Source: Lentibacter algarum (lineage in GTDB: Bacteria; Pseudomonadota; Alphaproteobacteria; Rhodobacterales; Rhodobacteraceae). From it: 64,000 nucleotides of DNA. Below the pieces are notes generated by a model, which ran no database searches, was not told the DNA's origin, and saw only the letters and a list, made by a program, of their open reading frames with translations. Shown piece after piece: positions 30,323-64,000 of this stretch; within the stretch, counting starts at the first letter, position 1, and each line of letters opens with the position of its first letter. Both the position numbers and the translations under genes were made by a program. The stretch spans positions 124,001-188,000 of the forward strand of contig NZ_JAHKQI010000010.1 in the NCBI RefSeq assembly GCF_018860975.1, read 5' to 3'.

Positions 30323-30331
30323 CTTTTCACC

Positions 30332-30793: not shown

Positions 30794-30796
30794 GAC

Positions 30797-31833: not shown

Positions 31834-31844
31834 ATCGTCGTTCC

Positions 31845-32837: not shown

Positions 32838-32849
32838 CAGTTTGCCTCC

Positions 32850-38569: not shown

Positions 38570-38601
38570 TTTGGTTAGTGTCTGCTTTGGTTAGTGTTTG
38601 C
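38570..38601. repeat. 16-bp tandem repeat at the SDR/WecG convergent junction
   Basis: TTTGGTTAGTGTCTGC (38570-38585) is followed directly by TTTGGTTAGTGTTTGC (38586-38601), with one mismatch. The second unit contains the stop codon of the minus-strand WecG gene, so the repeat duplicates the end of that gene. Confidence 0.8.
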
Positions 38602-42864: not shown

Positions 42865-43841
42865 GCAACGCCGCAAACATCGGCGCGGTCATCATTGGCC
42901 GCAATGAAGGCCAGAGGCTCGTCAACTGCCTTCAGTCCTTGAAAGGAGAAGTCGGTTTGGTTGTCTACGTTGACAGCGGATCGACAGATAACTCGATGCA
43001 GAACGCCGCCGAGTTGGGTGCGGAGTGCATATTACTAGACAACGAGACCCCTTTCACAGCCGCCAGAGCGAGAAACGCCGGATTTGAAAAAATCATGGCA
43101 CGGCCTAACCCGCCCAAGTTTGTTCAATTTGTCGATGGTGACTGCACCCTGGAACCCGGTTACCTCACCCATGCCGCCGCCGCCCTCAGTGCAGATAACA
43201 GCCTCGGTCTTATCACTGGCTGGCGCTCGGAAATTCACCCTGATGCCAGCATTTACAATCAGATGTGTGACTATGAGTGGCACCGTCCTGCGGGCGAAAT
43301 TCTGGCTTGCGGAGGTGATATGATGGTGCGCGTCAAAGCCTTTGAAGACATCGACGGCTTCAACGGCGAAGTGATTGCAGCTGAGGATGACGAGTTTTGC
43401 ACCCGCCTGCGCAAGGCCGGCTGGAAGTTAAAGCGCTTGCCTATCCCGATGACGCACCACGACGCAAATATGCTGAGCTTTGGCCAATGGTGGAGCCGCG
43501 CAGTGCGCACGGGGCACGGCTTTGAGCAAGTTAATGATCTGCATAGCGACTATTTTGTTCGCGAGCGTATGCGCATGTGGCTGTTTGGCGCGGCACTGCC
43601 TTTGGCGGCATTGTTTGGAGCCGTTCTCTACTGGCCCTTACTGGCGGCTATAATCCTGCTTTATCTGGTTTCTTATGTCCGTTCGGTGCGTGGCCTCGAA
43701 AAAGCAGGAATGGAGCGGAAAAACGCTCTGCGGCAATCAGTTTACCTGTTCCTTTCAAAGTTCCCCAACGTGATCGGGGCTGCAAAGTATCGCAAGCGAA
43801 AGCGCAACGGCGCCGAGATGGAAATCATTGAGTATAAGTGA
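42861..43841 (+). CDS. GT2-family glycosyltransferase with membrane anchor
   Basis: A 326-residue GT-A glycosyltransferase. The N-terminal nucleotide-binding segment GAVIIGRNEGQRLVNCLQSL and YVDSGSTDNSM are typical, FVDGDCTLEPGYL carries the DxD-like metal motif, and EDDEFCTRLRKAGW is the acceptor-side ED motif. Two hydrophobic segments at about residues 236-275 (MWLFGAALPLAALFGAVLYW) anchor it in the inner membrane, as in succinoglycan-type glycosyltransferases. It overlaps the upstream gene by four bases. Confidence 0.92.
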   Translation: MSNAANIGAVIIGRNEGQRLVNCLQSLKGEVGLVVYVDSGSTDNSMQNAAELGAECILLDNETPFTAARARNAGFEKIMARPNPPKFVQFVDGDCTLEPGYLTHAAAALSADNSLGLITGWRSEIHPDASIYNQMCDYEWHRPAGEILACGGDMMVRVKAFEDIDGFNGEVIAAEDDEFCTRLRKAGWKLKRLPIPMTHHDANMLSFGQWWSRAVRTGHGFEQVNDLHSDYFVRERMRMWLFGAALPLAALFGAVLYWPLLAAIILLYLVSYVRSVRGLEKAGMERKNALRQSVYLFLSKFPNVIGAAKYRKRKRNGAEMEIIEYK

Positions 43842-43848
43842 GCCAGAC

Positions 43849-46032: not shown

Positions 46033-46112
46033 AAGAGACAGGTGAACTTTGAAGCGATTGCATTTGGAAACATGCACTAAAGCGCGGCTTGCGAGCCGTC
46101 GTGAGGCCTGTC

Positions 46113-47549
46113 ATGTCTGAACGACGCACATTTAGTCGCACAGCGCGCAAACAGCTTTCGTCAGAAGACCGGGATCGCATGATCGCCGATATGCTTGGTG
46201 ACGCCGAAACAGATACAGCATCCAAAAGCTCAGCAGCATCAACCAAACTCCCTGCAAAAACTACCTTTATCGAAAGCCTTGATGCGCTTGATGCCCTTGA
46301 TGCAGAGTTCGACCCCGAACTTGCTGAAGTGCGCGCTGAAGAGGTTGAGCAACAAATCATTAACGAGTTGCGCGAACACAATGCTTTGGTTGACGAAGCA
46401 ATCGCACAAATAGCCGATGTTTCTTCCGAACCACTCGCGGATGATGTTGCGCACGACGCTTTGATCGAAAACTTGCCTGCCGAAAGCTCTACCGAAGTTA
46501 ACGAAGCGTCTCAGCCAGTTATGCCAAGACGGGTGAAACCGAAGCCACTTTCGCTGGGGCCCGAGTTTGCAATGTCGACGGCAATTTCCGATGCAGTGGT
46601 CAACGAAGAGATCAACATTCCGGTCTTGCCTGCCGTTGATGAAAGCACCGCGCCAGAGCGTCTGGAACGCGAAGCCGAGCCTATTCCCGAACCGGAACCA
46701 GAAGTTGAACCAGAGCGTGAGCCTGAGGTTTCCGTCGCACCAGCCCAGGACACAGCCATCCAAAACAAGCTGCGTTCCGCTTATGAGACCGCAGACATAC
46801 CTGACGTGACAGAGCCTGCTGATTTGTGGAACAAGCTTGCCGTCATGCCTGTAGATGCTGCTCATCTTGAAGAAAACTTGATAATCACGGCCAGCAGGCA
46901 AGAACAAGCGCACGGTGCGTTTGATGTATTGCGCACACGGCTTGTCCAAACCCTGCTTGAACACGGATGGAAACGCGTTGCTATTACGTCACCTTCCAGA
47001 AACTGCGGCAAAACCTTCACCGCGGTTAACCTCGCTATTTCGCTTTCCCGTTACGAAGCAAATAGAACTGTTTTGCTAGACATGGATATGCGAAACCCCT
47101 CGGTCGCGAATGTAATAGGGGATCCAAACCCCGGCTGCATGGGCGATTTTCTGCGTGGTGCGACAACTGCCGAGGACTTTCTTGTAAAGTTTGATCGTAA
47201 CAACCTGAATATCGGTTCGAGCCTTGCGATCGGGACAAACGGCATCGTTGAGCCCTACGCTGCTGAACTTGCGCAGGATCCGCTGACCGCACAAAGCATC
47301 AACCGCATGATGCAAGAAATGTCGCCAGATATCGTGTTGTTTGACATGCCGCCAGCCCTCGCATTTGATGACGTTATCGCCTTCAGGAAACAGTTTGACG
47401 GTGTTCTGATGGTCGTTGGCGGAGGCAGTACCAGCCCCGAAGAAGTGCGCGAAGTTATGCGCCGCTTAGGTGAAGATACGCCACTATTGGGTGTCGTTCT
47501 CAACCAGGCAGAAGGCGAAGACGGCAGCGATTATAGCTATGGCTACTAA
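46113..47549 (+). CDS. BY-kinase-like (CpsD/CapB) ATPase with long acidic N-terminus
   Basis: A 478-residue protein. The C-terminal ~220 residues form a P-loop domain like bacterial tyrosine kinases that control polysaccharide polymerisation: Walker A SPSRNCGKTFTAVNLA, Walker A' VLLDMDMRNPS, Walker B DIVLFDMPP, and a tyrosine-rich end DYSYGY that could be phosphorylated. The Walker A lacks the usual GxGKS glycine pattern. The N-terminal ~250 residues are acidic, Pro/Glu-rich and predicted disordered. I start at 46113, with GTGAGG upstream; the frame is open to 46089. No transmembrane part is fused; its expected partner is the Wzz protein, which is convergent (9 bp between the stops). Confidence 0.88.
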   Translation: MSERRTFSRTARKQLSSEDRDRMIADMLGDAETDTASKSSAASTKLPAKTTFIESLDALDALDAEFDPELAEVRAEEVEQQIINELREHNALVDEAIAQIADVSSEPLADDVAHDALIENLPAESSTEVNEASQPVMPRRVKPKPLSLGPEFAMSTAISDAVVNEEINIPVLPAVDESTAPERLEREAEPIPEPEPEVEPEREPEVSVAPAQDTAIQNKLRSAYETADIPDVTEPADLWNKLAVMPVDAAHLEENLIITASRQEQAHGAFDVLRTRLVQTLLEHGWKRVAITSPSRNCGKTFTAVNLAISLSRYEANRTVLLDMDMRNPSVANVIGDPNPGCMGDFLRGATTAEDFLVKFDRNNLNIGSSLAIGTNGIVEPYAAELAQDPLTAQSINRMMQEMSPDIVLFDMPPALAFDDVIAFRKQFDGVLMVVGGGSTSPEEVREVMRRLGEDTPLLGVVLNQAEGEDGSDYSYGY

Positions 47550-47558
47550 CGCCGAAGT

Positions 47559-48860
47559 TCAGCCAACTGGCTTGCGCTGAAGCAAGCCGATCAAGCCACT
47601 CATACCGTCTTTAAGCACGCCAAAAGCTATCGCGCCAATTGCCAGCAATGCAACAAGCAGTGCAGCACGCATTACTTTCTTGCGCTTCTTACTACGCGGG
47701 CCGTTGATCTGCGGGATAGCAACGACAGCTTTAACGTTGAGCTGGCGTTCCAGATGCTCGCGCGTTCGAATGACCGGGCGAAGCAACTCAAGCAAGAACG
47801 CCAAGCCAAGACCGAGCATTCCACTCGCACCGAAACCCAGCACAACCTTTTTCTTACGGCTGCCGGACACCGGGTTTTCAGGAACTAATGCCGTTTCTAG
47901 AACTTCAATGCGCTCAAATTGATCTTGATTTTCAAGCGCCTGGCTCATTTCAGCACTCGTCGCCCGTTGCGTAATAACCGTGTATTGTTCTTTCAATTGC
48001 TCTTGCTCGCGCTGCAGAGCACTGAACTGCCGTTCTACCTCCGGCGCCCGACTGATTGCAGTCTGGATTTCGTCGATGCGCGAGCTGATCAGGCTACGTT
48101 GCTCATTGATCAGCGCACGTTGATTGGCTTTGTTTTGCTGTCGAGCACCACCACCTTCAAGCTCGATCAGACTTTGATCAAGCTCCAACAGTGTGCTGCG
48201 CAATTCCAACATCTCTTCGCGTTGAGCCGATATTCCATCCGGCAGAAACTTGGTATTGGCCTCTTTGAACTCCGCGATACGCGCTTCAAGCTCTGTGATT
48301 TCGGTTTCGACACGTGCACGCTCTGTTTGAAAAAACACTAACTGTTCCGATGCAGCGGCAGACCGTCTTTGGTTGTTCAGATCAAGCAGGTTTTGAAGCA
48401 ACTCGTTTGCTAGAAGAGCAGCCATCTCCGGATCCGTATCCGAGACGGTAATGCGCATACCAGTGGGTGTGCGCGGGGCGCCCCAACCTGCACTTTGATC
48501 CGTGATTTGAAGCAACCGAGCAGAATCCCGCAATGTCGCAACCTTCAGGTTTGTTGACATATCAACCCCAGAATAGAGGCCGTATTTCTTGATTATTCCA
48601 ACAAGATTGTCGCGTGCCATCAGTTGTTGTTCGAGCAAACGCAATCTGCGGTCGATCGAAGTAGTCCCTGCAGCCCGTGTCCCAGCATCAACAATTGTCG
48701 GTGCCTCGATCTGCGCAACGGCAGTCGCTTCATAAATCTTCTTTTGGCCCAATGCCCAATAGATTGACGCTAAGGTGCCCAAGAACACAACAAGCGCGAT
48801 CAGCCAAAAACGCCGGCGCACCATACTAAAAAAATCACCCAAGGACTGGATCTGGCCCAT
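47559..48860 (-). CDS. Wzz/GNVR-type polysaccharide chain-length determinant
   Basis: A 433-residue polysaccharide co-polymerase. It has an N-terminal membrane helix (~17-37, FWLIALVVFLGTLASIYWAL), a long periplasmic region of coiled coil with the GNVR-type segment near residues 275-330, and a second helix near the C-terminus (~395-415). A short cytoplasmic tail follows, without a kinase domain. Such proteins set chain length of exported polysaccharide together with a BY-kinase, here the neighbouring convergent gene. It lies 224 bp downstream of the phosphopantetheinyl transferase gene on the same strand; that gap contains an inverted repeat at 49032. Confidence 0.92.
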   Translation of the reverse strand: MGQIQSLGDFFSMVRRRFWLIALVVFLGTLASIYWALGQKKIYEATAVAQIEAPTIVDAGTRAAGTTSIDRRLRLLEQQLMARDNLVGIIKKYGLYSGVDMSTNLKVATLRDSARLLQITDQSAGWGAPRTPTGMRITVSDTDPEMAALLANELLQNLLDLNNQRRSAAASEQLVFFQTERARVETEITELEARIAEFKEANTKFLPDGISAQREEMLELRSTLLELDQSLIELEGGGARQQNKANQRALINEQRSLISSRIDEIQTAISRAPEVERQFSALQREQEQLKEQYTVITQRATSAEMSQALENQDQFERIEVLETALVPENPVSGSRKKKVVLGFGASGMLGLGLAFLLELLRPVIRTREHLERQLNVKAVVAIPQINGPRSKKRKKVMRAALLVALLAIGAIAFGVLKDGMSGLIGLLQRKPVG

Positions 48861-49084: not shown

Positions 49085-49756
49085 TTAAGCGATCAGCACA
49101 ATATGGTAAAAGTGATCGTCAAAAAGGAGCGCATGGCCATGACCCTCGAACTGCTCCTCAAAGTCATTCTCCGGCCGAGTGAACCGTGCCAAAAACTGCG
49201 TCGATGTTGGAAACGCGATCTCAAAACCACCAAAACCTAACATTTTTCCAGTGATCATGTACTGGGCCTTAAAAGCCGCTTCCTTCGCGGAAAACACTTG
49301 TTTTGCCCGCACCAAAGGTGTCGCCGAGGCGTTAATCAGGGTGCTAACCTCGCGGGGTGTGCATACCTCGGCAACAAGTTCTGATTTTAAGGGGCCCGCG
49401 CTTTCAACATCAACCCCTAGGCTCTGCACATCATTTTTGAAAGCTACAAGAGCAATGCACTTTTCGGTGCAATGGCTGATGCTTCCGACTGTTCCTTCAG
49501 GCCAAATTGGAACGCGATTTGCGGCAGCTAACAAAGGCTCCGCTGGAAGACCCAGTCGGCTCAAAGCGTTTCGAGCTGCGCGGCGTCCAGCGGCATATTC
49601 ACACTGTCTTTTCGCAATCGCGTTTGCAATGCTTCTAGCCTCTTCAGGCCAAAGGCCTTCGGGGGGGCTTTGCGGATCGTCGCAAGCAAACACAACTTCA
49701 CTGGGCAGCACGTCTGTTAGGCAGGTTGCAAAACGCTCGGGAGGCAGCGGTTTCAC
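49085..49756 (-). CDS. Sfp/EntD-type 4'-phosphopantetheinyl transferase
   Basis: A 223-residue enzyme that attaches phosphopantetheine from CoA to carrier-protein serines. Recognisable motifs are the N-terminal [12 protein letters not shown] segment, the [15 protein letters not shown] motif, the metal-binding aspartate in GVDVES, and the [12 protein letters not shown] motif with the catalytic Glu and Lys. It is of the EntD subtype. The start overlaps the NRPS stop by four bases, so it is made with the synthases and is likely to activate the carrier domains of the NRPS (Ser1443) and PKS (Ser1797) encoded upstream. Confidence 0.93.
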
Positions 49757-52700
49757 GAAGCACGTGCCGCTTCGCGAAGGGCACGCATTTTTCGCCGACG
49801 TGACATCGTATCGCTTGGTGGAACAATCTCGGCTGGTTTTTCTGCGGCCTGAAACTTCGCTTTCTCATCCGCTTTCCCAATCGGTTCGTGCGTGTTTTTC
49901 ACCGTCGGCCCCAACTCACGAACCCGCCCTGCCAAATCCTCGAGTTTGGGGAAGCGAAACACATCAGTGATCGACAAGCGCGAAACTTTGAAATGCTCTC
50001 GGATTTCACGATGCGCCTGCACCGCCAACAAAGAATGTCCGCCCAAGTCAAAGAAACTGTCACGCCCGCTAATCCGGTCAACGCCCAGGACACGCGCCCA
50101 GATTTTGGCGATTTCGTCGTCGATCTCATCTCCGGCAACTCCACGGCTCTGTGGTTGCGGCGTGTCGTTGGCTGCCGCCTGCGCCTGCGGTGTCGGCAGC
50201 GCGTTTCGATCGATTTTTTTATTGGGAGTCAGTGGGATATGATCTAGTTTCACATAGTGTTGCGGGATCATAAACTCCGGCAAATCGCGCCCGAGCATTG
50301 ACCGCAAAGCCGCTTCATCCGGCTCTTGATCAGTTGCTAGATAGGCCACGAGACGTACATCACCCGGTGTATCCTCTCGCGCAATGACAACAGCTTGTCG
50401 CACGCTAGCTTGCTCATGCAGCCTTGCTTCAATTTCACCAAGTTCGATCCTGTAGCCGCGTAACTTTACCTGATTGTCAGCCCGGCCAAGGAAATTCAGG
50501 CGACCATCTTCTCGCCAACAGGCAAGATCACCGGTGCGATACATACGCCCACCGTGAAACGGGTTGGCAACAAAGCGCTCCTGAGTCAGATCTGGGCGTT
50601 GCCAGTAGCCACGCGTAACACCAGCTCCGCCAATAAACAGCTCGCCGGCAACACCGACAGGACAAGCTGCCCCTTCAGCATCAAGAACATAGGTCTGCGT
50701 ATTGGCAATAGGGCTGCCAATGTTAACTGTGTTTTCACCGACATCGGCTGTCTCGGTAGTCGACCATATTGTGGTTTCTGTAGGCCCATACATGTTCTCG
50801 ACACTCGCATCGCTTAGCTCTCGCAACTCTTGCACAAGACCACCTGAAAGTGCCTCTCCGCCAATCAGCAAATGCTTCACCTTTGACAGCGCCAAGTTGC
50901 TTTCGTCATTTGATGTCAGCATCTTGGCAAGGGACGGCGTGCACTGCAAATGCGTCACCTTGTGCCGTACAATTTGCGCCGCGATCGAGTAGTCTTGTTC
51001 ATCAGCCGCATCCAAAAGGTTGGTGCGACGATGCACTTCCGCCAGCGGTTTCAATCCTTCCAGAACTGTCTCGGGTGCGATGCCGTAATCTATCAGACAG
51101 CCGATCTCATCAACACCGATACGCTTTAGTTCCTCCACCCTGTCGAGACATTCATCGACGGTGCCAAACAATCCACTGTCTTCAAAATAACGCTCAAAGG
51201 CAAACTCCAGGATGGCGTCAAGCTCGTCATCTTCTAGGATATCAAGATCAAGTTGAAATGGGTTTTCGACACCCTTTGGCTTCTTGAATGCAGGAAACGC
51301 CCAGGCGTATTGCTTGATCAAACCTGCTGCCGCATTGAGGTAATCCTTCATAGGGCCGCGGGCAATTTCCCGTGCATGGGCACGCGTGTCGGCCACGTAG
51401 GTATGCAGCATCAGCGTCACAGTGAACGCGTCAGGTTCGTGCCCGGCCCTGGCAAGCGCCTCCCGGTAGATCTTGATCTTTTCGCCAACCTCGTCAATTG
51501 ACTGACCAAGCAGGTGGGTCAAAACATTTGCACCGTTTTCACCAGCTTCGCGCCAAGTGTCAGGGTTGCCAGCTGTTGTCACCCAGATCGGCAACTCCTT
51601 TGAGATCGGCCTTGGTTGCGTGACAATTTCCACATCTTTACCCGATCCGTTCGGATAGCTGACAGGCTCGCCGCGCCATAGTTTCCGCAGAGTATCCAGC
51701 GCTTCAAACATTGCTGTTTTGTTGTTTGGCGGGGCATTTTCCGGACGCAAGACAAAATCGTCTGGTTGCCAGCCAGAGGCTATCGACAATCCCGCGCGCC
51801 CATTGGTCAGGTTGTCGATCACAGCCCATTCCTCAGCAACACGCAGAGGGTGATGCAGCGGCACCACGCAAGACCCGGACCTGACAGCTATGTTTTCCGT
51901 CACTGCTGCAACTGCGGCACCAGTAACTGACGGGTTTGGATAGGGTCCGCCAAAGGCATGAAAATGCCGTTCAGGTGTCCAAACCGAACTAAACCCATGG
52001 GCATCAGCAAACTTTGCACCTTCGAGCAGCAAATGATACTTTTGCTTTCCTGGCCCGTCGTCGTTCCCCCAGTAAAACAAGCCAAAGTCCATGCCCTTGC
52101 CTGTCATCGAAAGGCGACCGCCCGACAGTTGCGTGCGGTTCTCATCGCCCGCCAGAACAAGCTTGAACCCGCGCCCGAGCGTGTAAAACAACTCAAGCAC
52201 AGAGATATCGAAAGACAACGATGTCACTGCCAACCAAACAGAGTCTGCGTCTCGTGATATGCGCGTATCCATGCCTGTGAAAAAGTTTGACACATTGCGG
52301 TGTTCAACCATCACGCCTTTGGGCTTGCCCGTCGAGCCCGAGGTATAGATGAGGTAAGCTAGGTCAGAAGGCCCTGCACCGCCGTCGAGGTTCTCAGATG
52401 ATGCTTCCGCAAGCCTCGGGTCTCCGGTTACGGCACTATCCAGCTCTAACAGTTGCACATCACGCGCTGGTAAATCCGCTGCAAGCGCCCTTTCGGTCAC
52501 GATCACCGGTGCAGCACTGTCACGAATGTAGAGCGCTATGCGGTCTGCCGGGTAGGCGGGGTCGATGGGCACATAAGCGCCACCGGCCTTTAGAATGCCC
52601 AGAGCTCCAATTAGAAGTTGCGGACCACGGTGAACAGCAAGCCCCACAAGCGTGCCCGCATTGACACCCATACTCCGCAAAACATGCGCTGCCTTGTTCG

Positions 52701-54360
52701 CTTTCGCATTCAACTCGGCGTAGGTCAGCACTTCCCCCTCGAACACCAGCGCTTGGGCGTCCGGTGTCTTGGCAGCTTGGGCTTCAAAAAACTGGTGGAT
52801 ACAAGCTGACTCGTCATACTCGGAAGCTGTATTGTTAAAGCTCTCAATAGTGGTTTCACGCTCGCTTTCGGGCAGGATCGGCCAAGCCGCAAGCTCCGCA
52901 GGCAAGCTTTCTTGAGCGGCAATATGTTCTATGCGCCTTGCCCATAGCTCTGCCAAAGCGGCGGTAACACAACTGCTGTCATAGTAAAGCGCATCCGGTG
53001 CGATCGTCAGTGCACAGCCAGCCACGGCACCTGCCTCTGACAGTCCGATATCCGGCTGCACGGGGCGAGAAAGGGATGGATCGCGCAACGCCAAATCGGC
53101 AGCAAAACTCGGCCATTTCCGCGCCGAGGCCAGTGCCTGAGCAAAACTGTCCGAATGACGTAAAGGCACCCAATGGCTTGCATGCCCACTGGCCGAAAAG
53201 GTGTTAGCCGATTGATATGCCAAATCGGCAAGGCCCTCTTCGCTCAAGCGCGAAACGAGCCCAGTGCAGCGCTCAAAAAGGTGTTCTGCACTAACAGAAA
53301 GCTTCAACGGGATGCGCTGTATCGAACTATCGTCAGAAAGAGCTCTTGAAAGCGCAAGTTTTGCTGGCCGGAAGCTAGCGAAAGCTCTACGCCAATGTTC
53401 ATCACCACGCGCGACAATCTCCTGTGCCTTATCAAGAGAGGCAAGTTTCTGGGCATCAAGTTTGGTGAGCATATCACCTTTTCTGAAGACATCTGATGGG
53501 ACAACCTGAGCACCGGAAAGATCGCTCATCTCGCGCAATATGACGGGGCTATCTGATGTCGCAAAAGTGACGGAATACTCAGAGACATCAAGCACAGTAC
53601 CTGCTGCGGCTCCTGTCGAAGGCAGGCCTGCCACCGCTGCGCTGCCAACAACAAGCAACTGGTCTTTAAACAACAGTCGAGGCGTCGTCAGCGGGTTCCA
53701 ATACGGTCCATGATCAAGCCCGAGGACCAGCGCAACAACGGCCTCGGAGGTAGTTTCAAAGTCAATCATCCCGAAGGCTTGCGGGCGCTTGAACTTGCCA
53801 AAGTAACTGCGCATTTCAACATCCTGAGCCGTAGATGGCACGGGACTGCATGCAAGCTTTTCTACCAAAGCATCAAAACTTCCAAGCGCTGCTTCATAAG
53901 CCTTGGTGTTGAGTGTCAACGCGGTATCGGTATCTGCAATTTCAAAGTTCACTTGCGAAATGATAGCGCCGGTATCAACTCCGCTTTCGATGAAATGCCA
54001 GCTAATCCCGTGGCTGTTCTCTCCTGCTAGGCGCGCCCAAACCGGTGCATTCAGCCCCGCATATCGCGGCAACGGGCCGTCATGAAAGTTGACAGCGCCG
54101 AGTTCTGCCCGCGCCAGAACATCCTCGCTAAGAAGATCAAGATTGGCGATCGACAACAACCAGTCAGCGGTGTGCGAAGATAGCCGCTCACTTAAGCCTT
54201 TACCTGGCGCAACGATGGTCACCCCCTTAGACTCTGCCCAAGCCAGAACTTCGGCGTTGCGAGACACCAACGCTGTGATGCTGTGCCCCGTGGCAAGCCA
54301 CTTTTCGGCGCATTGCTGCGTGAGGCTTTCATTCCCGATCACGATTGCTGAAAAGCTCAT
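49753..54360 (-). CDS. NRPS: formyltransferase, condensation-like remnant, adenylation with inserted LLM monooxygenase, carrier
   Basis: A 1535-residue synthetase. Residues 1-300: formyltransferase domain of the Fmt type with catalytic Asn91 and His93 in [12 protein letters not shown] and Asp129 in ESGVDTGAI. Residues ~310-495: the end of a condensation-like domain without the HHxxxDG motif. Residues ~515-745 and ~1115-1390: an adenylation domain ([50 protein letters not shown], Lys in PNKKIDR). Residues ~750-1110: a luciferase-like FMN monooxygenase (MupA/Atu3671 type, [12 protein letters not shown]) inserted between adenylation motifs A4 and A5. Residues ~1410-1475: a carrier domain with Ser1443 in LGGHSLLA. 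Asp718 in motif A4 indicates an alpha-amino-acid substrate. It overlaps both neighbours by four bases. Confidence 0.92.
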
Positions 54361-55373
54361 TTACACTCTCCTTGTGTAGGGCATCCCGCTGGGCCGGCTG
54401 TCGTATTCCGCGTTTGCGGTTTGAATACTGATTTGCAGGCATGGCTGGCTAAGGTGCGCAAAAAATGAGGAGGCATTTGCGGATCTTTGCGCTCGGCGAA
54501 CCGCCTGAAGCGGTAGAACCCCCCTCCCAACAAATGCAGTGCCGTTGCATACAGGGCGTATATCTTGCTGTAATTTTTCGCAAAATAGTACCACCGGCTG
54601 TCAAACCAATAGTTCGGAACACGGGCCCATTCCTTCATGCCGGTTGAGACAGAGCCAATGTGTTCGACTTCACTTTCACGCACATAGACGGTTGGCCACC
54701 CCGCAATAGCAGCCCTTCGGCACAGGTCGGTTTCCTCGAAGTAAAGAAAGAAAGTCTCATCGAACTGGCCGATCTCTTCCAACACGTCCATACGCATCAT
54801 CATGCTCGCTCCTGCCAGCCAATCAACCATAACTGTCTCGTCTGGCACTGGCAGCGGCACGATATGTTTTCTCAGCAAACGTGAAACAGGACCGAACCGC
54901 ATAGCTCCCTCCAGCTCGCTCAACGCTGAGGGAAACCGGAACGCTGTTTCGTGCGCAATACCGTCTGAGCCATGGATATAGCTTCCTGCAAACCCGATAT
55001 TCGGGTGCTGCTTCAGATAGGTTACAAGCTTGCGCACAGCCTGTTTCGCTGGAAAGGCATCAGAATTCAGAATGTAGACAAAGTCTGCCCGCTCACCGTC
55101 GCTGCGACCAGTATTGATGCCAAAGTTGTTGCCCGCGCCAAAGCCGCCGTTATGCCCTGACTGCACCACGCGCACAGGCATGTTATCAGACATGTTTTTG
55201 GCGGCCACGCCTGAGCTGAGCATCTCAAACGAACCATCACCGCTGTCATTATCAACAATAACCAACTCAGCGTTCAAACCTTCAAGAGCGCGCAAGGCTG
55301 CCTCAGCAGACCGTAAAGTCATTTCGGCGGTCTGATAGTTCAAGATAACAGCAAGGAGGCGTGGCTCGGTCAT
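54357..55373 (-). CDS. WbbL-like GT2 glycosyltransferase
   Basis: A 338-residue glycosyltransferase of the rhamnosyltransferase (WbbL) type. The N-terminal segment [20 protein letters not shown] is followed by [11 protein letters not shown], the characteristic [14 protein letters not shown], the DxD-position FVYILNSDA, and [19 protein letters not shown]. The ATG at 55373 lies one base after the PKS stop, and the gene overlaps the NRPS start by four bases. A sugar transferase wedged between PKS and NRPS genes with this coupling implies that the product is glycosylated, or that the acyl-aminoacyl chain is put on a glycan. Confidence 0.92.
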
Positions 55374-55374
55374 G

Positions 55375-58300
55375 TCAGCTCGCTTCCTTTGCATTTTGAG
55401 GCATCGCCGAGACCCTAGCCGCACGCGCAGCGGGGTTTTCGGCGTCTTCGATACATCGCCGCAACCGGGCTGCCAAAACCCTCACGTTCGGTTCCAGTAC
55501 CATTGAGTCATGATCCCCGGGAACTTCAATCACCTGCACCAAAGGAGCATGTTCCGTCCAGTCGTTGTCGGGCGTTACATAGCTTCTCTCCGAGCTGACC
55601 ATCGCACCGTTTGACACTTTCCATTTGCCGCTTAGAGGCGGACGGAACAACGCCAAAGGACCATCCCATGCCTGCAATTTATACTGCCCGACAGCCTCAA
55701 GAAACGCTGTTTCGATGTCTGAGTTGTGAAAGTTTACTTCAGAAATATCAGCGTCTTGAGGGACACTTTTAAACCTTTTAGTGAACTCCCACTTCACCCG
55801 TCGAACCAACCATTTAAGCGGATAAAGTATCCCTCCTGACTTCAACTCTTGAAGTTGAATCAGCGCGCGATCACCAAGCTCAAGTGGCCGGCGTTGCGGC
55901 AGAGGTGTGTCGAGCATGACCAGCATCATGACGTCTTCACCCTGCGCCCGAAGCAATTGAGCAATCTCTAGCGCAATAATCCCGCCACCAGAAAACCCAC
56001 CCAACATGTAAGGCCCGGATGCCTGCACTTGCTTGATCTCGTTGAGATAGTCTTTGGCAGCTTCGGGTATCGAACGATGCGGTGCCTCATTCCCATAGAG
56101 CCCGCGGGCTTGCATGCCATAAAACGGCCGGTCGGTTCCGAGCAAATGCGCCAGATGACGGAGGTTCAGCACATTGCCAAACATGCCCGCAACGAGAAAG
56201 AAAGGCCGCCTTGGCCCACCCTCGCCCTGATGCATCGGCACGAGGTGCGTAAAGCGGCGCTCGGGCGCGCGTGGTGTTTCAGCATCCGTTGCGTCGGAAG
56301 ATGGCGCGACATGCACACCTTCCGCTTCAATCAGTGCTGCACATTTTTTGATCGTGGGCGCTTCAAACAGCACTGAAATCGGAAACTCGACATCAAAGGC
56401 TTTTTTGACTTGTGCAAACAAACGCACTGCAATCAACGAGTGACCGCCGAGATCAAAGAAATTATCGTCAGATCCAACCTTCTCAACGCCAAGCAGCGTG
56501 CTCCAGAATTGGCTGAGCTTCTCTTCAATCACCCCTTCTGGTGCTACATAGTCTGTATCCAGATCAGGACGCTGGAAAGTCTGACCTTCAGTTTGCTGGC
56601 TTATAGAACCTGCCTCGGCCTGTGCCTTCAAACCCGCAAGATCAAGTGAGCTAATCACCAACTGGGCCCGCCCTGCTGACAATGCCCGCAAGAATGCCTC
56701 AGCGCCTTCGGGTGGTGTGATCCCCATGCTCAAGTTGTGACGCAACCGCTCTTCTGCTGGCGGCGATTGGTGCTTTTGTATCTGGTCATCAAACTCCAAA
56801 TCAGTCGGGCGCACAGGCGCACGGGCAAATCCTTCTGCTTCGTCCAGTCGCCGGATGGTAAATCCGCGTATCTCGGCGCAAACTTCGCCAGTTGTGTCAC
56901 ACAAAACGATGTCAAAGCTGGCTGCGCCTGCTTGAACAGTGTTCTCGGCTGCATTTTGCACCCAGCTAACAAGCTCTTCAGGTAGGTCACGATAAACCCG
57001 CAGTGCGCCATAAGACACGGGCACCCATAAGTGGCTTGCAACGTATCCTTCAATCAGCTCCATTGCCCAACCTGTTGCAAGGTCCATGATCCCCGGGTGA
57101 AGCAAGCAATTGTCACCCGACGCAGCCTTAGGCAACGCCAGCCGAGCAAGCCCCTCGCTCTCGCCTAAAGCAGTCTCTTTCAAAACCCTCCAGCGTGGCC
57201 CGAAGTTAAGGTGTTCTTCCTGCGGTGAGCGCAACGTCCGCCCCTCTTCTGCAAGCGTAAACGCTTCGCAGCGGTCAGCGATCGGAGCGAAGTCAATTGG
57301 TGCCGGCTGGGGCATGTCTGTCAAAACCAAAACACCTGTGGCATTGGTCTCAAAGCCTTGCCGACCATCAAAATCACGCGAAGACTGCACCTTAAACTGA
57401 TAGCCAATGTCGTCACGCTCTAGAGTTACACGCAACTCCCGACTCTCGTCATCGGCCACTTCAAGGGCGCGCAAAAAGTAAAGATCGCGCAACTCGAACG
57501 GCGCAGTCTCTCCTTGAGCGTGCAGCGCCTCCGCGGCGAGTTCCAGGTAGCCCGTTCCCGGCATTAATGCGTGGTTTTGCTTCGTGCGGTGTTCATTCAA
57601 TATCCAGTGTCTTGTCGTCAACTCGGCTGTAAAGAGACGGTTACCTGCGCGGTCAAACGTTGCCGCCTGCAGCAACGGCGCTTGCAGGTCCTGCCGCGTT
57701 TGGTCTGGCTGTTGGGCCGTCAAACCAAGCGCATCGGCGGCCATGCCGACTTCTGCCCAAATGCCCCAATTGAGTGCGAGAACCTTGGTTTTCCCGCCGC
57801 TCCGCGACTTGGCATATGCGTTCAAAAACTCGTTTGCAGCAACATAGTCAACTTGCCCTACAGGCGCTGTGACAGTGGAGCTTGAAGAGAAGAGAACCAT
57901 ACAATCAAGCGTCCCATCAGGGAACAACTGACCAAGAACTTCAGTGCCGTGCAGCTTGGGCGTAAACACGTCTTCGATCTCGGCCATGGTTTTACTCAGC
58001 AAAGGCGCATCGTTGATCGCACCAGCAGCATGAATGACACCGTGAATGTCACCAAAACGTAGGCTGACTTGCTCAACCGTGCCGCGCATGTCTTCGATGT
58101 TTGAGACATCGCCCGCGACGACCATGACCTGCCCACCGAGTGCTTCGAGTTTTTCAACCGCAGCAATGCGACGTGAAATGCTGTCATGCGAGCCGTGTCG
58201 CAGCTTTTGAGCCTCCCACTCATCTCGGGGCGGCAAAGCTGTTCGCGCGAGCAAAACAATTTTTGCGGCGTAATCGCGCACAAGTTTCTCGGCAAGCGTC

Positions 58301-61300
58301 AAACCGATGCCGCCAAAGCCACCGGTAATCAGATACGTGCCTTCCTGTCTCAGCGGCAGTTCGGATGTATCCTCAACTGCAAGGTTAAACGGCTTGAACA
58401 CTTCTTCAAAACGACGTTCGCCGCGTATCGCCGCGATGGCGTTGTGAGGCGCTGCAAGCAACTCCTCAAGCAACAAAGGCAACAGCGCTTTAAAGCGATC
58501 CCCCTTACGTTTTGTATCCGGCAAGCTGATATCAACCATAGCAGCAGTAAGGCCTGGCATTTCGCGTGGGATCATCATTATCGGGCCACGCAGACAGCTC
58601 TTCTCCGGATAGACCAGCGCTTCACCTCGCACAGTTGCCGCGCCGGTTGTAAATGCTGAAATCGCAATTTCCGACCAATCGGCGGCAGCCATAGCTTGCG
58701 CCAAAAAGAGCAGTGAGTAGAACCCTTGCTCTTGATTGCGGTGAAAGAAGCTCGAGCCAGCGCGGTGCGTTTCTTCATCTGTTACCAACCAGAAGTGCGC
58801 AATTCGTGTCGGCTGGATGCTGCGAGCGCTAAGATCTTCAACCAACAAATCATAGCCTTCACGGCCACGTTCCGGTGACAATACATAGCCGCCACTTGCG
58901 TCACGCCCAAAGGCATCTCCGGCGCGCAGTTCAACAACTTCGTGCCCGGCATTCCGCAGGGTGTTGGCAAGCGCTTTCCCTAACCCCGCCTCGTCCATAA
59001 AGAACAACCAACACTCCTTAGCAGCGTCTTTGAGGCCGTGGACTACATCAACGTTGCAATCAGCGGCAACGGGTTTCCAAAAAGGGGCAAAACCCCAGTT
59101 TTCAAGCTCCGGAATACGCGCCAAATGACTTGAAGCTTGCTCTACGCGGGTTTGACCTGGCTCGATGAAATACGGTTTTTTCTGAAACTGGTAGGTAGGA
59201 AGCGGCAGGCGATTACGCCGCGCATCCCCCCAGACTTGCGCCCAGTCAAAACGACCGCCCATCGCCCAGATGCGGCCCAGTTGCGACACGAACCAACGGT
59301 CGTCGGCGATGGCATCGTCGGGGTGTCGCAAAGCCGATATCACTTGATCACGCCGGATGTTCGGACATTGTTGTGCCAAAGACGACAGCGCTCTGCCCGG
59401 CCCCATTTCAATATAAATCCGGTTTTCACGCGCGCTCAGAGTCTGCACACACTCCGCAAACAAGATCGTGCCGCGCAGGTGTCCGACCCAATAGTCCGGG
59501 TCGGTCGCTTGATCATCGCTAATCAACGCACCAGTGCGGTTTGATACAAACGGTATGACTGGCGCATTTAGAGTGATCGAGCGCAAATAGTCCCCGAAGC
59601 CCTGCAAGATTGGTTCAAGCATGCGAGAATGCGCTGCGATGTCGATCGCCACGCGCTGACAGTCAATATCAAGCGCCTCAAGCCGCGCCTGCAAGCTCGC
59701 AAGCTCGGCGTCTGGCCCTGAAGCGACTGACAAGCCCGGTGCATTCACTGAGGCCAGATCCAGCGTCTCACCCAGATGTTTGCGCAGCTCTTCTGCTGGC
59801 AAGGATACAGACAACATGCCGCCCGCAGGCACTGTATCAAACAGCCGCCCGCGCAGGTGCACCAAGCCTATGCAATCTTCAAAACTCATCACACCAGCGA
59901 GACAAGCCGCCGTGTTTTCGCCCATCGAATGCCCGACCAAAACATCAGGCTTCACGCCCCAGCTGATCCAGAGTTGTGCCAAAGCGTATTCAACGATCAT
60001 GATTAGCGGTAGCTGCACCGAAGGGCGCTTAAGCATTTCGTTCGCTGCGTCTTTCTCGTCGGGAGCCGGCAGCCAAAGCGGCTTGATGTCATACTCAAGA
60101 CGCGGCTGCAAAACCTCAAAGCCACGGTCCATCCATTCGGCAAACACCGGCTCGGTCTCGTACAAATCTTGCGCCATTCCGGCATACTGCGCCCCGCCCC
60201 CCGGGAACATAAAAACAGTATCCGGCGCGTCCATGGCCTGATGGGTAAACACGCGGCGCGGGTCGTTTTCTTCGAGCAACTGAGCCGCTTCTGCTGGTGT
60301 TTCGGCAACTAGCGCGCGCCGTTTCTCAAAAGCACGGCGCCCCTCCTTGAGCGTAAAAGCAACATCAGCCAGATTTTGCTCAGGGTTCTCACGTAAGTGC
60401 TCGGCAAGAGCTTTCGCATTGCCTTCAAGCGCGGCCTTAGAGCGGGCCGAAACTGTCATGATCTGAAAGGGCCAGTCGCTCGCATCACTTCCCTCAGATT
60501 CTGGCGCTTCCTCAACAACAACATGCGCATTCGTCCCGCCGACTCCAAGTGAGTTCACCCCGGCCCGCCGCGCTGTAGAGCCGCGCGACCAAGGTGTCAG
60601 CCTGTCGTTAACCACAAAGGGCGAATGCTCAAAATCAATCGCTGGGTTGGGCTTTTCATAGCCCAGAGACGGCGGCATTTCGGCATTCTTGAGCGCAAGC
60701 GAAGCCTTGATCAGACTGGCAACACCTGCGGCTGTGTCCAAATGCCCGATATTGGTTTTGACACTGCCAATGCGACACCTGTGCTCACTATCTGAGCCAC
60801 CAGCGAAAGCCTCCGTTAGCGCGGCAACTTCGATCGGATCTCCGAGATAGGTTCCTGTGCCGTGACATTCAACATAGTCAATTGTTTCAGCCGGCGTTTG
60901 CGAAACAGCCAAAGCCTCTCTGATCGCAGCCGCCTGCCCGTCAACCGACGGTGCCAGATATCCGGCTTTTGCAGCGCCGTCATTGTTGACAGCACTGCCC
61001 TTGATAACAGCCCAGATATGATCTCCGTCGCGCAGCGCGTCTTCCATCCGCCGCAAGACAACCGCTCCCGCACCCGATCCGAAAACCGTGCCCTCTGCTC
61101 GGTGATCGAATGCATGACATGCTCCGTCAGGTGACAGAACCTCACCTTCCTTGAACACATAACCATGCCCGTGCGGAAGCTCGATTGTCACACCGCCAGC
61201 AAGAGCCATGTCGCACTCACCTGTCAGCAAAGATTGCGCCGCATAATGCGTAGCAACAAGTGAAGTCGAGCAGGCGGTTTGCATGCTGATCGACGGGCCT

Positions 61301-61827
61301 TTGAGATCAAACACATGGCTGACACGCGTGCTCAAGAAATCTTTATCGTTGCCGGTGTGGCGCAGTAAAAACATGCCAACGTCATCGACAAGCTCGGGGT
61401 TGGAGCAGATGTTAAAGTAAAAATAGCTGCCCATACCGCAACCAGCGAAAACACCAATCGGCCCGTCAACGCTCTCTGGCGGGTGACCGGCATTCTCAAA
61501 TGCTTCCCATGCAACTTCGAGAAATTGCCGGTGCTGCGGGTCAAGAATGGCCGATTCTTTGGGGGAAAACCCGAAGAAGTCACCATCAAAATACTCGAAC
61601 TGATCCAACATGGCAGCAGCAGGAACATAGTCGGGCCGCGCAAGCAGTGCTTCGGAAACGCCAGCATCGCGCAACTCGTCTGGTGATAGTTTACGAATAG
61701 ATTCAACGCCTTGACGCAGGTTCCGCCAATACTCATCAATGTTACCCGCACCGGGAAGATGCGCCGCCATCCCGACTATTGCGATATCGTTTTCGTCGTA
61801 GTTCTTTAAAATTGTTTTGTTGGACAT
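55375..61827 (-). CDS. Type I polyketide synthase KS-AT-KR-DH-like-ACP-TE
   Basis: A 2150-residue single-module synthase. Ketosynthase at 1-440 with Cys186 in TACSTS, His322 in CHGTGT and His362 in NIGH; acyltransferase at ~537-830 with Ser634 in GHSMGE; ketoreductase at ~1160-1360 with GGFGGIG and Tyr1328; a dehydratase-like hot-dog region at ~1405-1660 whose first motif reads HRTKQNHALMPG, without the usual glycine spacing; carrier domain with Ser1797 in LGGHSLIA; and a C-terminal type I thioesterase at ~1875-2110 with Ser1946 in GGFSGGG. DH after KR is an unusual order for modular synthases. A TATAAC element (61885-61890 on the complement) lies 58 bp upstream. It heads the PKS-GT-NRPS-PPTase operon. 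Confidence 0.93.
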   Translation of the reverse strand: MSNKTILKNYDENDIAIVGMAAHLPGAGNIDEYWRNLRQGVESIRKLSPDELRDAGVSEALLARPDYVPAAAMLDQFEYFDGDFFGFSPKESAILDPQHRQFLEVAWEAFENAGHPPESVDGPIGVFAGCGMGSYFYFNICSNPELVDDVGMFLLRHTGNDKDFLSTRVSHVFDLKGPSISMQTACSTSLVATHYAAQSLLTGECDMALAGGVTIELPHGHGYVFKEGEVLSPDGACHAFDHRAEGTVFGSGAGAVVLRRMEDALRDGDHIWAVIKGSAVNNDGAAKAGYLAPSVDGQAAAIREALAVSQTPAETIDYVECHGTGTYLGDPIEVAALTEAFAGGSDSEHRCRIGSVKTNIGHLDTAAGVASLIKASLALKNAEMPPSLGYEKPNPAIDFEHSPFVVNDRLTPWSRGSTARRAGVNSLGVGGTNAHVVVEEAPESEGSDASDWPFQIMTVSARSKAALEGNAKALAEHLRENPEQNLADVAFTLKEGRRAFEKRRALVAETPAEAAQLLEENDPRRVFTHQAMDAPDTVFMFPGGGAQYAGMAQDLYETEPVFAEWMDRGFEVLQPRLEYDIKPLWLPAPDEKDAANEMLKRPSVQLPLIMIVEYALAQLWISWGVKPDVLVGHSMGENTAACLAGVMSFEDCIGLVHLRGRLFDTVPAGGMLSVSLPAEELRKHLGETLDLASVNAPGLSVASGPDAELASLQARLEALDIDCQRVAIDIAAHSRMLEPILQGFGDYLRSITLNAPVIPFVSNRTGALISDDQATDPDYWVGHLRGTILFAECVQTLSARENRIYIEMGPGRALSSLAQQCPNIRRDQVISALRHPDDAIADDRWFVSQLGRIWAMGGRFDWAQVWGDARRNRLPLPTYQFQKKPYFIEPGQTRVEQASSHLARIPELENWGFAPFWKPVAADCNVDVVHGLKDAAKECWLFFMDEAGLGKALANTLRNAGHEVVELRAGDAFGRDASGGYVLSPERGREGYDLLVEDLSARSIQPTRIAHFWLVTDEETHRAGSSFFHRNQEQGFYSLLFLAQAMAAADWSEIAISAFTTGAATVRGEALVYPEKSCLRGPIMMIPREMPGLTAAMVDISLPDTKRKGDRFKALLPLLLEELLAAPHNAIAAIRGERRFEEVFKPFNLAVEDTSELPLRQEGTYLITGGFGGIGLTLAEKLVRDYAAKIVLLARTALPPRDEWEAQKLRHGSHDSISRRIAAVEKLEALGGQVMVVAGDVSNIEDMRGTVEQVSLRFGDIHGVIHAAGAINDAPLLSKTMAEIEDVFTPKLHGTEVLGQLFPDGTLDCMVLFSSSSTVTAPVGQVDYVAANEFLNAYAKSRSGGKTKVLALNWGIWAEVGMAADALGLTAQQPDQTRQDLQAPLLQAATFDRAGNRLFTAELTTRHWILNEHRTKQNHALMPGTGYLELAAEALHAQGETAPFELRDLYFLRALEVADDESRELRVTLERDDIGYQFKVQSSRDFDGRQGFETNATGVLVLTDMPQPAPIDFAPIADRCEAFTLAEEGRTLRSPQEEHLNFGPRWRVLKETALGESEGLARLALPKAASGDNCLLHPGIMDLATGWAMELIEGYVASHLWVPVSYGALRVYRDLPEELVSWVQNAAENTVQAGAASFDIVLCDTTGEVCAEIRGFTIRRLDEAEGFARAPVRPTDLEFDDQIQKHQSPPAEERLRHNLSMGITPPEGAEAFLRALSAGRAQLVISSLDLAGLKAQAEAGSISQQTEGQTFQRPDLDTDYVAPEGVIEEKLSQFWSTLLGVEKVGSDDNFFDLGGHSLIAVRLFAQVKKAFDVEFPISVLFEAPTIKKCAALIEAEGVHVAPSSDATDAETPRAPERRFTHLVPMHQGEGGPRRPFFLVAGMFGNVLNLRHLAHLLGTDRPFYGMQARGLYGNEAPHRSIPEAAKDYLNEIKQVQASGPYMLGGFSGGGIIALEIAQLLRAQGEDVMMLVMLDTPLPQRRPLELGDRALIQLQELKSGGILYPLKWLVRRVKWEFTKRFKSVPQDADISEVNFHNSDIETAFLEAVGQYKLQAWDGPLALFRPPLSGKWKVSNGAMVSSERSYVTPDNDWTEHAPLVQVIEVPGDHDSMVLEPNVRVLAARLRRCIEDAENPAARAARVSAMPQNAKEAS

Positions 61828-61959: not shown

Positions 61960-63324
61960 TCAGTAAACAACCGTAACCAATGCACTGATCTCTTCAGCAT
62001 TCATCCAAAGCGCCAATGCGATAACCGCAAGGCCAAGCAATGCAAGCACCGCGTCATGAAGCACGTCCCAAGCACCGGTGTGTCGCGAAAGCCAGACAAC
62101 AACAGGGTATGCCGCTATTATTGAAAGCCCCTGCCCAACAATCGCACCAACAAGGCCAGCGACTTTCAGTCCGACCATCAAAAACACCACCATCAGCACC
62201 GCTTTCGTGCCCGCCAGCACAAAAAACCGCTTGCTGTCGCCAGCCGCCAAAGCCGCTTGATCATAGGTCAGCGCAATGATGAACGGGATCTGCATACAAG
62301 CGATCAACACAGTGATAGCACCAGCGCTTTGATACCGCGGATCATACATAAGCTCGACCAAAGTTACGCCAAATACCGCAAAAAACATGACCAGCCCCAG
62401 CAGAGTACCCGACACCAGGAACCGCATCTTCCTGAGTTTCAGAAAGTTGCTATGGCTCGCCTTGGGTGGCCACTCGCGATAAACTGGTATGAGCATCCTG
62501 TTGACCAAAACCCCGCCCATAAGCAGCGGAAAAGACGCGAGAAAATAGCCGATATTGTAAACCCCGAACTGGTCTAATGGCAGGTATTTCCCGATGAGTA
62601 ACTTATCCGCCTGACTGATGACAAATCCGGCGACGGTTGCGAGGAATATCCACTTTCCAAAGTTAACAAGCTCTTGCGCTGCCGGACGCTCCCAGCGGAA
62701 CCGATTGCGTTCCCCCGGTAAAAACAACTCGTAAATCACAAACTCCGCCAGCCCACCTATCAGGCCAGAAAGGATCAACGCCCAGACCGACTGAAACATG
62801 TAGGCCAAAACGAGGGCACTGATCACGCCGATCGCTTGACTGACCATGTCGATCAACGTGATCCGACCCAGCAACAAATGCCTGTTGGCCTCTTGATAGC
62901 GGGTGGTGCAAAACCCCTTAATCACAAGACTAAATGCGGCCACAGGCAGCATAAATGCAAGTTCCGGCACCTCGTAGATCAGCGACACCGGCCAAGCGAG
63001 AAGGCAAGCAACGACCCATAAGAGCCCGCCTCGAATAACTTGAATGGTCCACGCTGTATCAAGAAAATCCCGTTCATCGCCACGCTTTGACTGCAAAATT
63101 GCAGGAGCGACGCCAACGTCGGAAAACATGTTGAGCCCCATAAGAAAAACAGAGATCAGCGCCATCAGACCAAAGGCCTCAGGAAACAGAAGACGTGTCA
63201 ATATCAGGTTCGAGGCAAGACGCAGCCCTTGGCTCCAGCCAAACCCAAAAACAGTCAGACCAGCACCACGCAGAACACGCGCTGCCAGACCGGAAGATTT
63301 CTCGGTGACGTCAAGGTTGCTCAT
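61960..63324 (-). CDS. Wzx-type polysaccharide flippase (PST/MVF family)
   Basis: A 454-residue polytopic protein with 12-14 predicted helices. It shows the start typical of this family, GAGLTVFGFGWSQGLRLASN and LTRLLFPEAFGLMALISVF, and GVAPAILQSK. These flippases move undecaprenyl-linked oligosaccharides across the inner membrane. The start overlaps the upstream glycosyltransferase gene by four bases. The PKS gene begins 132 bp downstream on the same strand, so read-through into the synthase operon is possible, although that gap could hold a promoter. Confidence 0.92.
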   Translation of the reverse strand: MSNLDVTEKSSGLAARVLRGAGLTVFGFGWSQGLRLASNLILTRLLFPEAFGLMALISVFLMGLNMFSDVGVAPAILQSKRGDERDFLDTAWTIQVIRGGLLWVVACLLAWPVSLIYEVPELAFMLPVAAFSLVIKGFCTTRYQEANRHLLLGRITLIDMVSQAIGVISALVLAYMFQSVWALILSGLIGGLAEFVIYELFLPGERNRFRWERPAAQELVNFGKWIFLATVAGFVISQADKLLIGKYLPLDQFGVYNIGYFLASFPLLMGGVLVNRMLIPVYREWPPKASHSNFLKLRKMRFLVSGTLLGLVMFFAVFGVTLVELMYDPRYQSAGAITVLIACMQIPFIIALTYDQAALAAGDSKRFFVLAGTKAVLMVVFLMVGLKVAGLVGAIVGQGLSIIAAYPVVVWLSRHTGAWDVLHDAVLALLGLAVIALALWMNAEEISALVTVVY

Positions 63325-64000
63325 CGCCCGCGGCTCCAGCCGTCCTCGCCGCCAAAGCGTGTAGCGAAGATAACACTCGAATACACTGCAAAGCCGATCG
63401 GATCTTTCAACACAAGCGACAGCACCGAGAGCCGACCCAAACTGAGCTTATCATCGTTCTTCATAAGGTGCTGATATTTTGACTTTATTTCTGTCACGCC
63501 GGTGTTTTGCCGACGCCGAACTTTGATAAGGTTTGCGTAGCCTTCAACCAATGGCCACGCGTATTTGCCCCGTAGTTTCAACCGTTCTTCGGGCGCGAAG
63601 CTTAGGCGGACGTAGGTGTCGTCGGATATGATGTCCGGGAACTTGCCCCATCGTCTTCGGCCCGATGCGCTGACGCCGAAGAGGCCGCAGCCAGGGGTGC
63701 CGTGGGTCATGAAAGGCACCTTTGCATAGATCCTCGCATAGGCGCGTGTGGCCCAGCTTTGCGCCGGTGCGATCACACATTGACCGCTGGCATAAATCGG
63801 TTTTTCAGACTGCAAAACCCGTGCCAGTTGATCAAGCAAACCAGCCCCCAAACGCACGTCGGCATCAAGGTATGCGCGCGCGCGGTGCATGGCTACCGCA
63901 TCACCGGCATTGAGAGCCCCCATTTTGCCGCCTTCAGCGAGATCAAGAACCGTAAAATCCCACCCCATTGCTGCAAATCGCGGCGCATATTTCCTAGCAA
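63321..64000 (-). CDS. GT2-family glycosyltransferase, partial at window edge
   Basis: The C-terminal ~226 residues of a glycosyltransferase; the frame stays open to position 64000, so the N-terminus is outside the window. Visible are GGKMGALNAGDAVA, which corresponds to the Nxx(L/A)N-G segment of GT2 enzymes, DADVRLGAGLLDQL with the metal-binding DAD, and DIISDDTYVRLSFAPEERL as the acceptor-side D-D segment. No hydrophobic channel region is present in this part apart from a short C-terminal stretch (KDPIGFAVYSSVIFAT). It overlaps the flippase gene by four bases. Confidence 0.85.
   Translation of the reverse strand, partial: ARKYAPRFAAMGWDFTVLDLAEGGKMGALNAGDAVAMHRARAYLDADVRLGAGLLDQLARVLQSEKPIYASGQCVIAPAQSWATRAYARIYAKVPFMTHGTPGCGLFGVSASGRRRWGKFPDIISDDTYVRLSFAPEERLKLRGKYAWPLVEGYANLIKVRRRQNTGVTEIKSKYQHLMKNDDKLSLGRLSVLSLVLKDPIGFAVYSSVIFATRFGGEDGWSRGR

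Follow-up and report, generated by a model that had tools for sequence, protein, structure and literature searches.

This work concerns a four-gene operon of Lentibacter algarum in which a type I polyketide synthase (PKS), a GT2 glycosyltransferase, a non-ribosomal peptide synthetase (NRPS) and a 4'-phosphopantetheinyl transferase (PPTase) follow one another inside a polysaccharide locus. The analysed stretch of 64,000 nucleotides, called here the window, covers bases 124,001-188,000 of contig NZ_JAHKQI010000010.1 (assembly GCF_018860975.1, genome of 3.65 Mb). The operon probably serves a Wzx/Wzz-type surface polysaccharide as its own source of building blocks. Comparison of genome sequences shows that a single set of genes for glycan export and transfer is inherited along with PKS, GT2 and NRPS, and we infer that the assembly-line product sits on the glycan. 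Small PKS/NRPS assembly lines usually make antibiotic-like molecules; here the shared inheritance suggests an undescribed, chemically modified surface sugar.

All four genes lie on the minus strand. The PKS (2150 aa, 55375..61827) comprises ketosynthase (KS), acyltransferase (AT), ketoreductase (KR), dehydratase (DH), acyl carrier protein (ACP) and thioesterase (TE) domains in this order and is followed by GT2 (54357..55373, ATG at 55373), the NRPS (1535 aa, 49753..54360) and the PPTase (49085..49756, with 4PPT_N and ACPS domains), PKS, GT2 and PPTase being assigned by domain search. Read from the sequence, one base separates the PKS stop TGA from the GT2 ATG (+1 nt), GT2 and NRPS overlap in ATGA (-4 nt) and NRPS and PPTase in GTGA (-4 nt); open reading frames (ORFs), these junctions and the domain matches agree on the minus-strand run PKS-GT2-NRPS-PPTase with 1-nt and 4-nt junctions that the initial annotation had described. 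The order PKS-GT2-NRPS with adjoining glycan genes was found in all ten relatives fetched at 40 kb, nine of which have the PPTase there as well.

The distribution of the operon was followed in a family sample of 198 genomes, one per genus, the window's own genome counted, with a separate E-value limit for each protein: <=1e-100 for the NRPS, <=1e-70 for the operon GT2, 1e-70 for the Wzx flippase, 1e-30 for the glycosyltransferase at the window edge (edge GT) and 1e-25 for Wzz. The NRPS is present in 73 genomes. The co-occurrence of the synthase genes with wzx/wzz-type genes, proposed as a check when the operon was first noticed, is borne out in this sample: GT2 occurs in 67 genomes, all of them NRPS carriers, and in none of the 125 genomes without the NRPS, Wzx in 71 genomes (67 with the NRPS), Wzz in 66 (64 with the NRPS) and the edge GT in 72 (69 with the NRPS), and NRPS, GT2, edge GT and Wzz are found jointly in 64 of the 198. 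A control, the catabolic window neighbour PaaA, is present in 90 genomes, 40 of them with the NRPS (Fisher p 0.054), and is not clearly co-distributed with it. These data support the view that assembly line and glycan machinery are co-inherited in this family, in about one-third of the sampled genera, and that their meeting is not a local accident; chance neighbourhood was rejected on the order recurring in ten of ten relatives and on the co-occurrence across the 198 genomes. A class-wide sample of 385 genomes gave seven with the NRPS at E<=1e-200; five of them belong to this family and two lack the formyl part.

It could be argued that the assembly line has only hitch-hiked historically in a much transferred polysaccharide island and is not functionally coupled to it. 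The locus is indeed carried on plasmid records in some relatives: among 72,556 such records GT2 was found in eight, seven with an NRPS match and the eighth with an NRPS annotated in pieces. This explanation is very improbable, however, when set against the constant position of GT2, which in 64 of 67 copies is no more than 300 bp from the NRPS (window's own excluded; of the other three, two are on other contigs of draft genomes and one is 4.8 kb off) and stands beside the PKS in two sphingomonads. Furthermore, the edge GT, Wzx or Wzz is distant or on another contig in some genomes (for example G034 and G178), yet co-occurs with the NRPS, although such a distant match may be a paralogue.

The starter unit can be predicted from the NRPS, which consists of a formylation domain, a region free of HHxxxD, a glycine-type adenylation (A) domain split by a luciferase-like monooxygenase (LLM), a carrier domain and an Arg-rich C-terminal tail. 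The N-terminal Formyl_trans_N match (residues 57-156, 53893..54192, minus strand, 60.7 bits) holds N91, H93 and D129, which we take to be the formyltransferase triad, in all 26 sequences of the motif alignment, and PDB matches include ArnA and LgrA. It is followed by a stretch of about 200 residues (296-530), possibly a relic condensation domain, from which the HHxxxD motif is absent in the window NRPS. The inserted TIGR04020 monooxygenase (residues 759-1109, 51034..52086, minus strand) scores 489 bits against a cut-off of 244 and splits the AMP-binding domain between FDISVLEL and the YGPTE region; its best solved relative is PuwE (6KET), and the cut-off of the solanimycin SolG family NF041803 was not reached by the NRPS (499 bits vs 2200). 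The carrier serine is conserved in 26 of 26 aligned sequences. By eye, the Arg-rich tail is present in the 47 full-length relatives shown, and 29 of these also fit a strict pattern. In alignment A1, four of 29 relatives' loci (L020, L024, L028, L030) were excluded for an in-frame TGA.

The A-domain code of the window NRPS, placed by eye on GrsA numbering, is DILQLGMIW. Among the 26 sequences the codes are DILQMGMIW (11), DILQLGMIW (7), DILQFGMIW (6), DILQYGMIW (1) and DILQLGMVW (1). According to the accessible text of a 2025 survey, DILQLGMIWK is common to four glycine domains with a monooxygenase (PMC12283262). As the NRPS also looks like a loading module that combines formylation, glycine and a monooxygenase, the starter is predicted to be N-formyl-(alpha-hydroxy)glycine, and the suggestion of a formylated, oxidised aminoacyl group made at the outset fits both domain content and glycine code. 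Luciferase-like monooxygenases of such clusters are described, in the part of the palmerolide paper available, as hydroxylases, epoxidases or Baeyer-Villiger-type oxidases (PMC8739492), and oxidations other than hydroxylation are therefore possible.

In the PKS the KR precedes the DH and no enoylreductase (ER) is present. An alignment of 49 rows (the window and 48 homologues spanning >1900 residues) retains the KS cysteine motif, the AT motif GHSxGE, the KR Tyr/Asn and the carrier serine motif in every row, and the KR cofactor motif deviates from GGxGGxG in seven (L069, L078, L081, L088, L096, L103, L116). His and Asp of the DH are retained with unusual spacing (HRTxxGxALxPGTG-like). The TE serine is kept in 47 of 49 rows, being Cys in two sphingomonad rows, and the TE His stretch is absent from one row (L090). 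A PKS with KR, DH and TE and without ER could also work iteratively and yield a lipid-like chain, which with GT2, beside the NRPS in nearly all copies, would make a glycolipid anchor or a primer for the polysaccharide. There is a precedent in RkpA of rhizobial K-antigen loci, a PKS/FAS-like multi-enzyme needed for surface polysaccharide; to our knowledge RkpA is not partnered by an NRPS, a formylation function or a monooxygenase. As the start of a lipid, a formylglycine loading module would be odd, and a lipid product is improbable.

On the reading of the operon as a source of glycan building blocks, the PPTase would prime the carrier domains and the NRPS would load glycine and formylate its nitrogen, after which the inserted monooxygenase would hydroxylate the glycine alpha carbon. 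The Arg-rich tail may dock the NRPS to the PKS, where one malonyl unit would be added and processed by KR and DH, and the thioesterase would release or transfer a short formamido-acyl group. GT2 would then place a sugar bearing this group, or glycosylate the group itself, and the decorated repeat unit would be exported by Wzx. It is tentatively proposed that in about one-third of the family's genera the repeat unit of a surface polysaccharide bears a group that the assembly line starts from N-formyl-alpha-hydroxyglycine. In the boldest form of this proposal the carbinolamide would collapse, formamide would leave and a reactive, glyoxylyl-derived aldehyde would be built into the glycan, where it might serve adhesion or cross-linking.

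Variants of the locus are found within the family. In G085 (L145, 10492-13725) the locus is kept and the NRPS lacks the inserted LLM, the PKS DH and the KR Tyr/Asn being gone; in G097 (L146, 9207-12515), where the locus is likewise kept, the NRPS has lost both the LLM and the formyl triad, the KS and AT motifs are missing too, and a stop codon lies in frame. These losses may reflect decay, or hydroxylation and reductive processing may serve one chemical end. In Paracoccus marcusii KGP the annotation breaks the region past PKS and GT2 (L153, 12856-17132) into numerous short fragments, of which three are LLM oxidoreductases; this is an NRPS that has decayed or was badly sequenced.

Outside the family sample, a scan of genome contigs for the NRPS, limited to 80 named loci, gave 49 with the formyl domain and LLM and 31 other NRPS loci; the closest named matches among those listed belong to the Rhodobacteraceae/Roseobacteraceae. 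At least one of eleven window glycan genes accompanies 35 of the 49 formyl-LLM loci vs two of the 31 others, and at least two accompany 32 of 49 vs none of 31, in tallies that use window proteins as queries and are thereby biased toward close relatives. Of the 49, 32 have GT2, and the PPTase is present in 25 of these 32; among the 14 formyl-LLM loci without a glycan marker, five are contigs of <14 kb. Sampling of the coupling outside Rhodobacteraceae-type hosts is thin. In the Rhizobiales sampled (Agrobacterium, Rhizobium, Aureimonas, Aminobacter), PKS and NRPS face opposite ways, with glycosyltransferases nearby and no such GT2. A flippase lies near the pair in Agrobacterium, Rhizobium and Aminobacter, the last having an O-antigen ligase and export genes too. 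In Sphingobium and Novosphingobium glycan genes accompany an NRPS-PKS-GT2 run, GT2 lying beside the PKS, and both genera fall outside the main alphaproteobacterial branch of the NRPS tree (42 of 47 sequences plus the window, five near-duplicates having been dropped). On this tree the label "no glycan" needs two changes vs a shuffle mean of 7.5. A similar glycan coupling is seen, by these comparisons, in Rhizobiales and in the two sphingomonads. Terricaulis (L117) has a GT87 and a Wzx-like ORF. In the Myxococcota contig L086 a formyl-LLM NRPS, a PPTase and several glycosyltransferases were seen, with no PKS match within 10 kb.

A number of observations weigh against placing the product on a glycan. 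The very small Fisher p-values of the glycan genes overstate the evidence because the 198 genomes are related and are not independent trials. Six of the 73 NRPS genomes lack a GT2 match (G022, G118, G144, G147, G158, G185; several of the contigs are short or fragmentary), and in G185, as on the L079 contig, PKS and NRPS are adjacent without it. Two of the 35 marker-bearing loci (L061, L077) show a single weak marker. Eight loci outside Alphaproteobacteria (L080, L081, L089, L090, L096, L103, L111, L119) have the NRPS-PKS pair and few or no glycan-type genes within 10 kb, and a related formyl-LLM loading module is found in larger NRPS/PKS clusters (Aliiroseovarius M344 plasmid, L140 15007-28746; G144, L148/L149) with no glycan genes in view. 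From the chemical side, the formyl carbinolamide may be unstable, and attaching the product would call for an acyltransferase.

The glycan-poor pair is hosted by Acidobacteriota, Planctomycetota, Chloroflexota, Rhodothermota and Comamonadaceae, and in outside lineages the NRPS is followed by the PKS on the same strand, which, like the Arg-rich NRPS tail, speaks for the building-block reading. When hidden Markov models (HMMs) built from the marker matches were run over the ORFs (shown for 25 loci), Acanthopleuribacter, Rhodopirellula, two Chloroflexota, Planctomycetes Pla163 and two Comamonadaceae had zero matches to this glycan set near the pair, and the Salinivenus pair had one GT2-like ORF. 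Pfam agrees on the scarcity of glycan genes for 53 ORFs of six non-proteobacterial loci, among the first 25 families listed, and for ORFs scanned singly. Among Comamonadaceae, L103 has a PMT and a PGM/PMM gene, with non-glycan domains in two further ORFs, and L096 has nothing glycan-like in the six ORFs scanned. It is therefore false that glycan genes are always present, and the core can serve without a glycan locus; the larger clusters, taken with the glycan-poor loci, make the core pair wider than the glycan link. As separate observations, the Aliiroseovarius M344 cluster adjoins nitrous-oxide reductase genes, and the VPLPA-CTERM exosortase xrtD lies near the NRPS in this strain (L140 33413-34362) and in Ruegeria conchae (L144 152-1804).

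The same outside loci and larger clusters, together with the TE serine kept in almost all PKS rows and the publication of the pair as an NRPS-like/T1PKS cluster of unknown type in the accessible literature, speak for a small molecule secreted in free form (a signal, an antimicrobial or a metallophore), which would share the locus with the polysaccharide because both serve surface growth under common regulation, and which GT2 would glycosylate as a free compound. Against this it can be said that Wzx, Wzz and glycosyltransferase homologues track NRPS genomes even when distant or on another contig, that the coupling is also seen in sphingomonads and that no uptake or resistance gene was found among the window genes scanned. 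A free product is rather unlikely. The initial annotation had held that its glycan proposal would fall if homologous pairs were regularly found without glycan genes or belonged to a free small-molecule pathway such as that of a siderophore; the former is true in part, in the outside loci and the larger clusters, and no siderophore gene was found among the neighbours scanned. More precisely, the part of the window and L139 genes that was scanned contains no siderophore receptor, exporter or chelating-group gene, and a siderophore pathway was set aside on the strength of this subset.

The flanking genes are in keeping with a polysaccharide locus. Upstream of the operon a Wzx-type flippase (61960..63324, minus strand, PF13440 174.7 bits) and the edge GT (63321..64000, minus strand, continuing past the window edge) stand as first described; the edge GT as cut by the window has no Pfam match, and its full-length version, read beyond the window, is a GT2 glycosyltransferase. 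On the other side the labels are softer: the Wzz-like chain-length protein (47559..48860, minus strand) is borderline (PF02706, 25.2 bits vs a cut-off of 25.5), and BY-kinase-like is a weak label by Pfam alone for the P-loop ATPase (46089..47549, plus strand, PF01656 9e-7). Then follow, on the plus strand, a fused Gfo/Idh/MocA oxidoreductase and NAD-dependent epimerase (43828..45942), retained at about 60% identity in six of ten relatives' loci, a GT2 (42861..43841) and a GT4 glycosyltransferase (41599..42864), an NAD-dependent epimerase/dehydratase (40670..41602) and a Gfo/Idh/MocA oxidoreductase (39555..40682). A WecG/TagA/CpsF glycosyltransferase (38591..39358, minus strand), a GMC oxidoreductase and SDR pair recurring in relatives' loci (36238..38561, plus strand) and a membrane acyltransferase (AT3) fused to an SGNH domain (34259..36241, plus strand) carry the glycan-type genes downstream of the operon back to 34.3 kb, where phenylacetate (paa) degradation genes (28519-34055) adjoin the locus. 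Past the window edge lie three GT4 genes and, as a candidate Wzy polymerase, an ORF of 461 aa (L139:7625-9007) that has 10 hydrophobic segments and no Pfam match. The glycan locus also holds a 998-aa ORF (L139 2698-5691) with a weak match to RTX calcium-binding repeats.

Should the product sit on the glycan, surface sugars in a common, largely marine family would regularly be decorated by assembly-line chemistry, and genome-mining lists in which this cluster figures as an orphan small-molecule pathway would have to be re-read. It would also tie "orphan" PKS/NRPS genes, in a way open to testing, to attachment, phage receptors and contact with hosts.

The genes themselves are in print. In the accessible text of the Roseibaca domitiana paper an NRPS at 350,790-355,316 and a T1PKS at 356,309-362,641 (BMJDCPAI_00765/_00767) are given as a cluster of unknown type, and NRPS-like/T1PKS hybrids are reported in 18 of 37 species; our matches in L087, converted by hand (350937-355307 and 356339-362641), agree with these genes. 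A hybrid cluster on pCP157_02 is similarly reported in the available part of a Paracoccus marcusii paper. For Phaeobacter inhibens a paper names a PKS gene, Inhi_1972, and an NRPS gene, Inhi_1974, whose numbers differ by two and which may be orthologues. The Roseibaca domitiana cluster has the same genes as here, its product being regarded there as an unknown molecule; the main text of that paper contains neither "glycosyl" nor "polysaccharide". A link of these genes to polysaccharide was not found in the open-licence literature, subscription papers falling mostly outside that search. The initial statement that no described pathway of this composition was known holds for the glycan link, as far as the accessible sources go, and not for the genes, already published as an unknown NRPS-like/T1PKS cluster.

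What is seen here is known domain types in a setting not found described. The monooxygenase of myxothiazol and melithiazol lies between a4 and a5 and hydroxylates the glycyl alpha carbon, after which the chain is cleaved off, as stated in the accessible part of the solanimycin paper (PMC10204066). Here, likewise, a monooxygenase lies between A4 and A5 of a glycine-type domain whose code is reported for glycine with a monooxygenase; the myxothiazol/melithiazol module, however, cleaves off the preceding chain as an amide, whereas the module here comes first, with no upstream module, and the insertion of the solanimycin FMO module lies between a8 and a9, unlike here. For conglobatin, a formylglycine loading module feeding a PKS is proposed in the available text (PMC4504003), and CongA shares with the NRPS studied here an N-H-D formylation domain, a glycine A domain, a carrier and the lack of an upstream condensation motif, with a PKS following; LgrA of linear gramicidin has a formylation domain also. 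Unlike CongA and LgrA, the operon of L. algarum has its monooxygenase inside the A domain, a single PKS with a thioesterase as partner and a polysaccharide locus as its setting.

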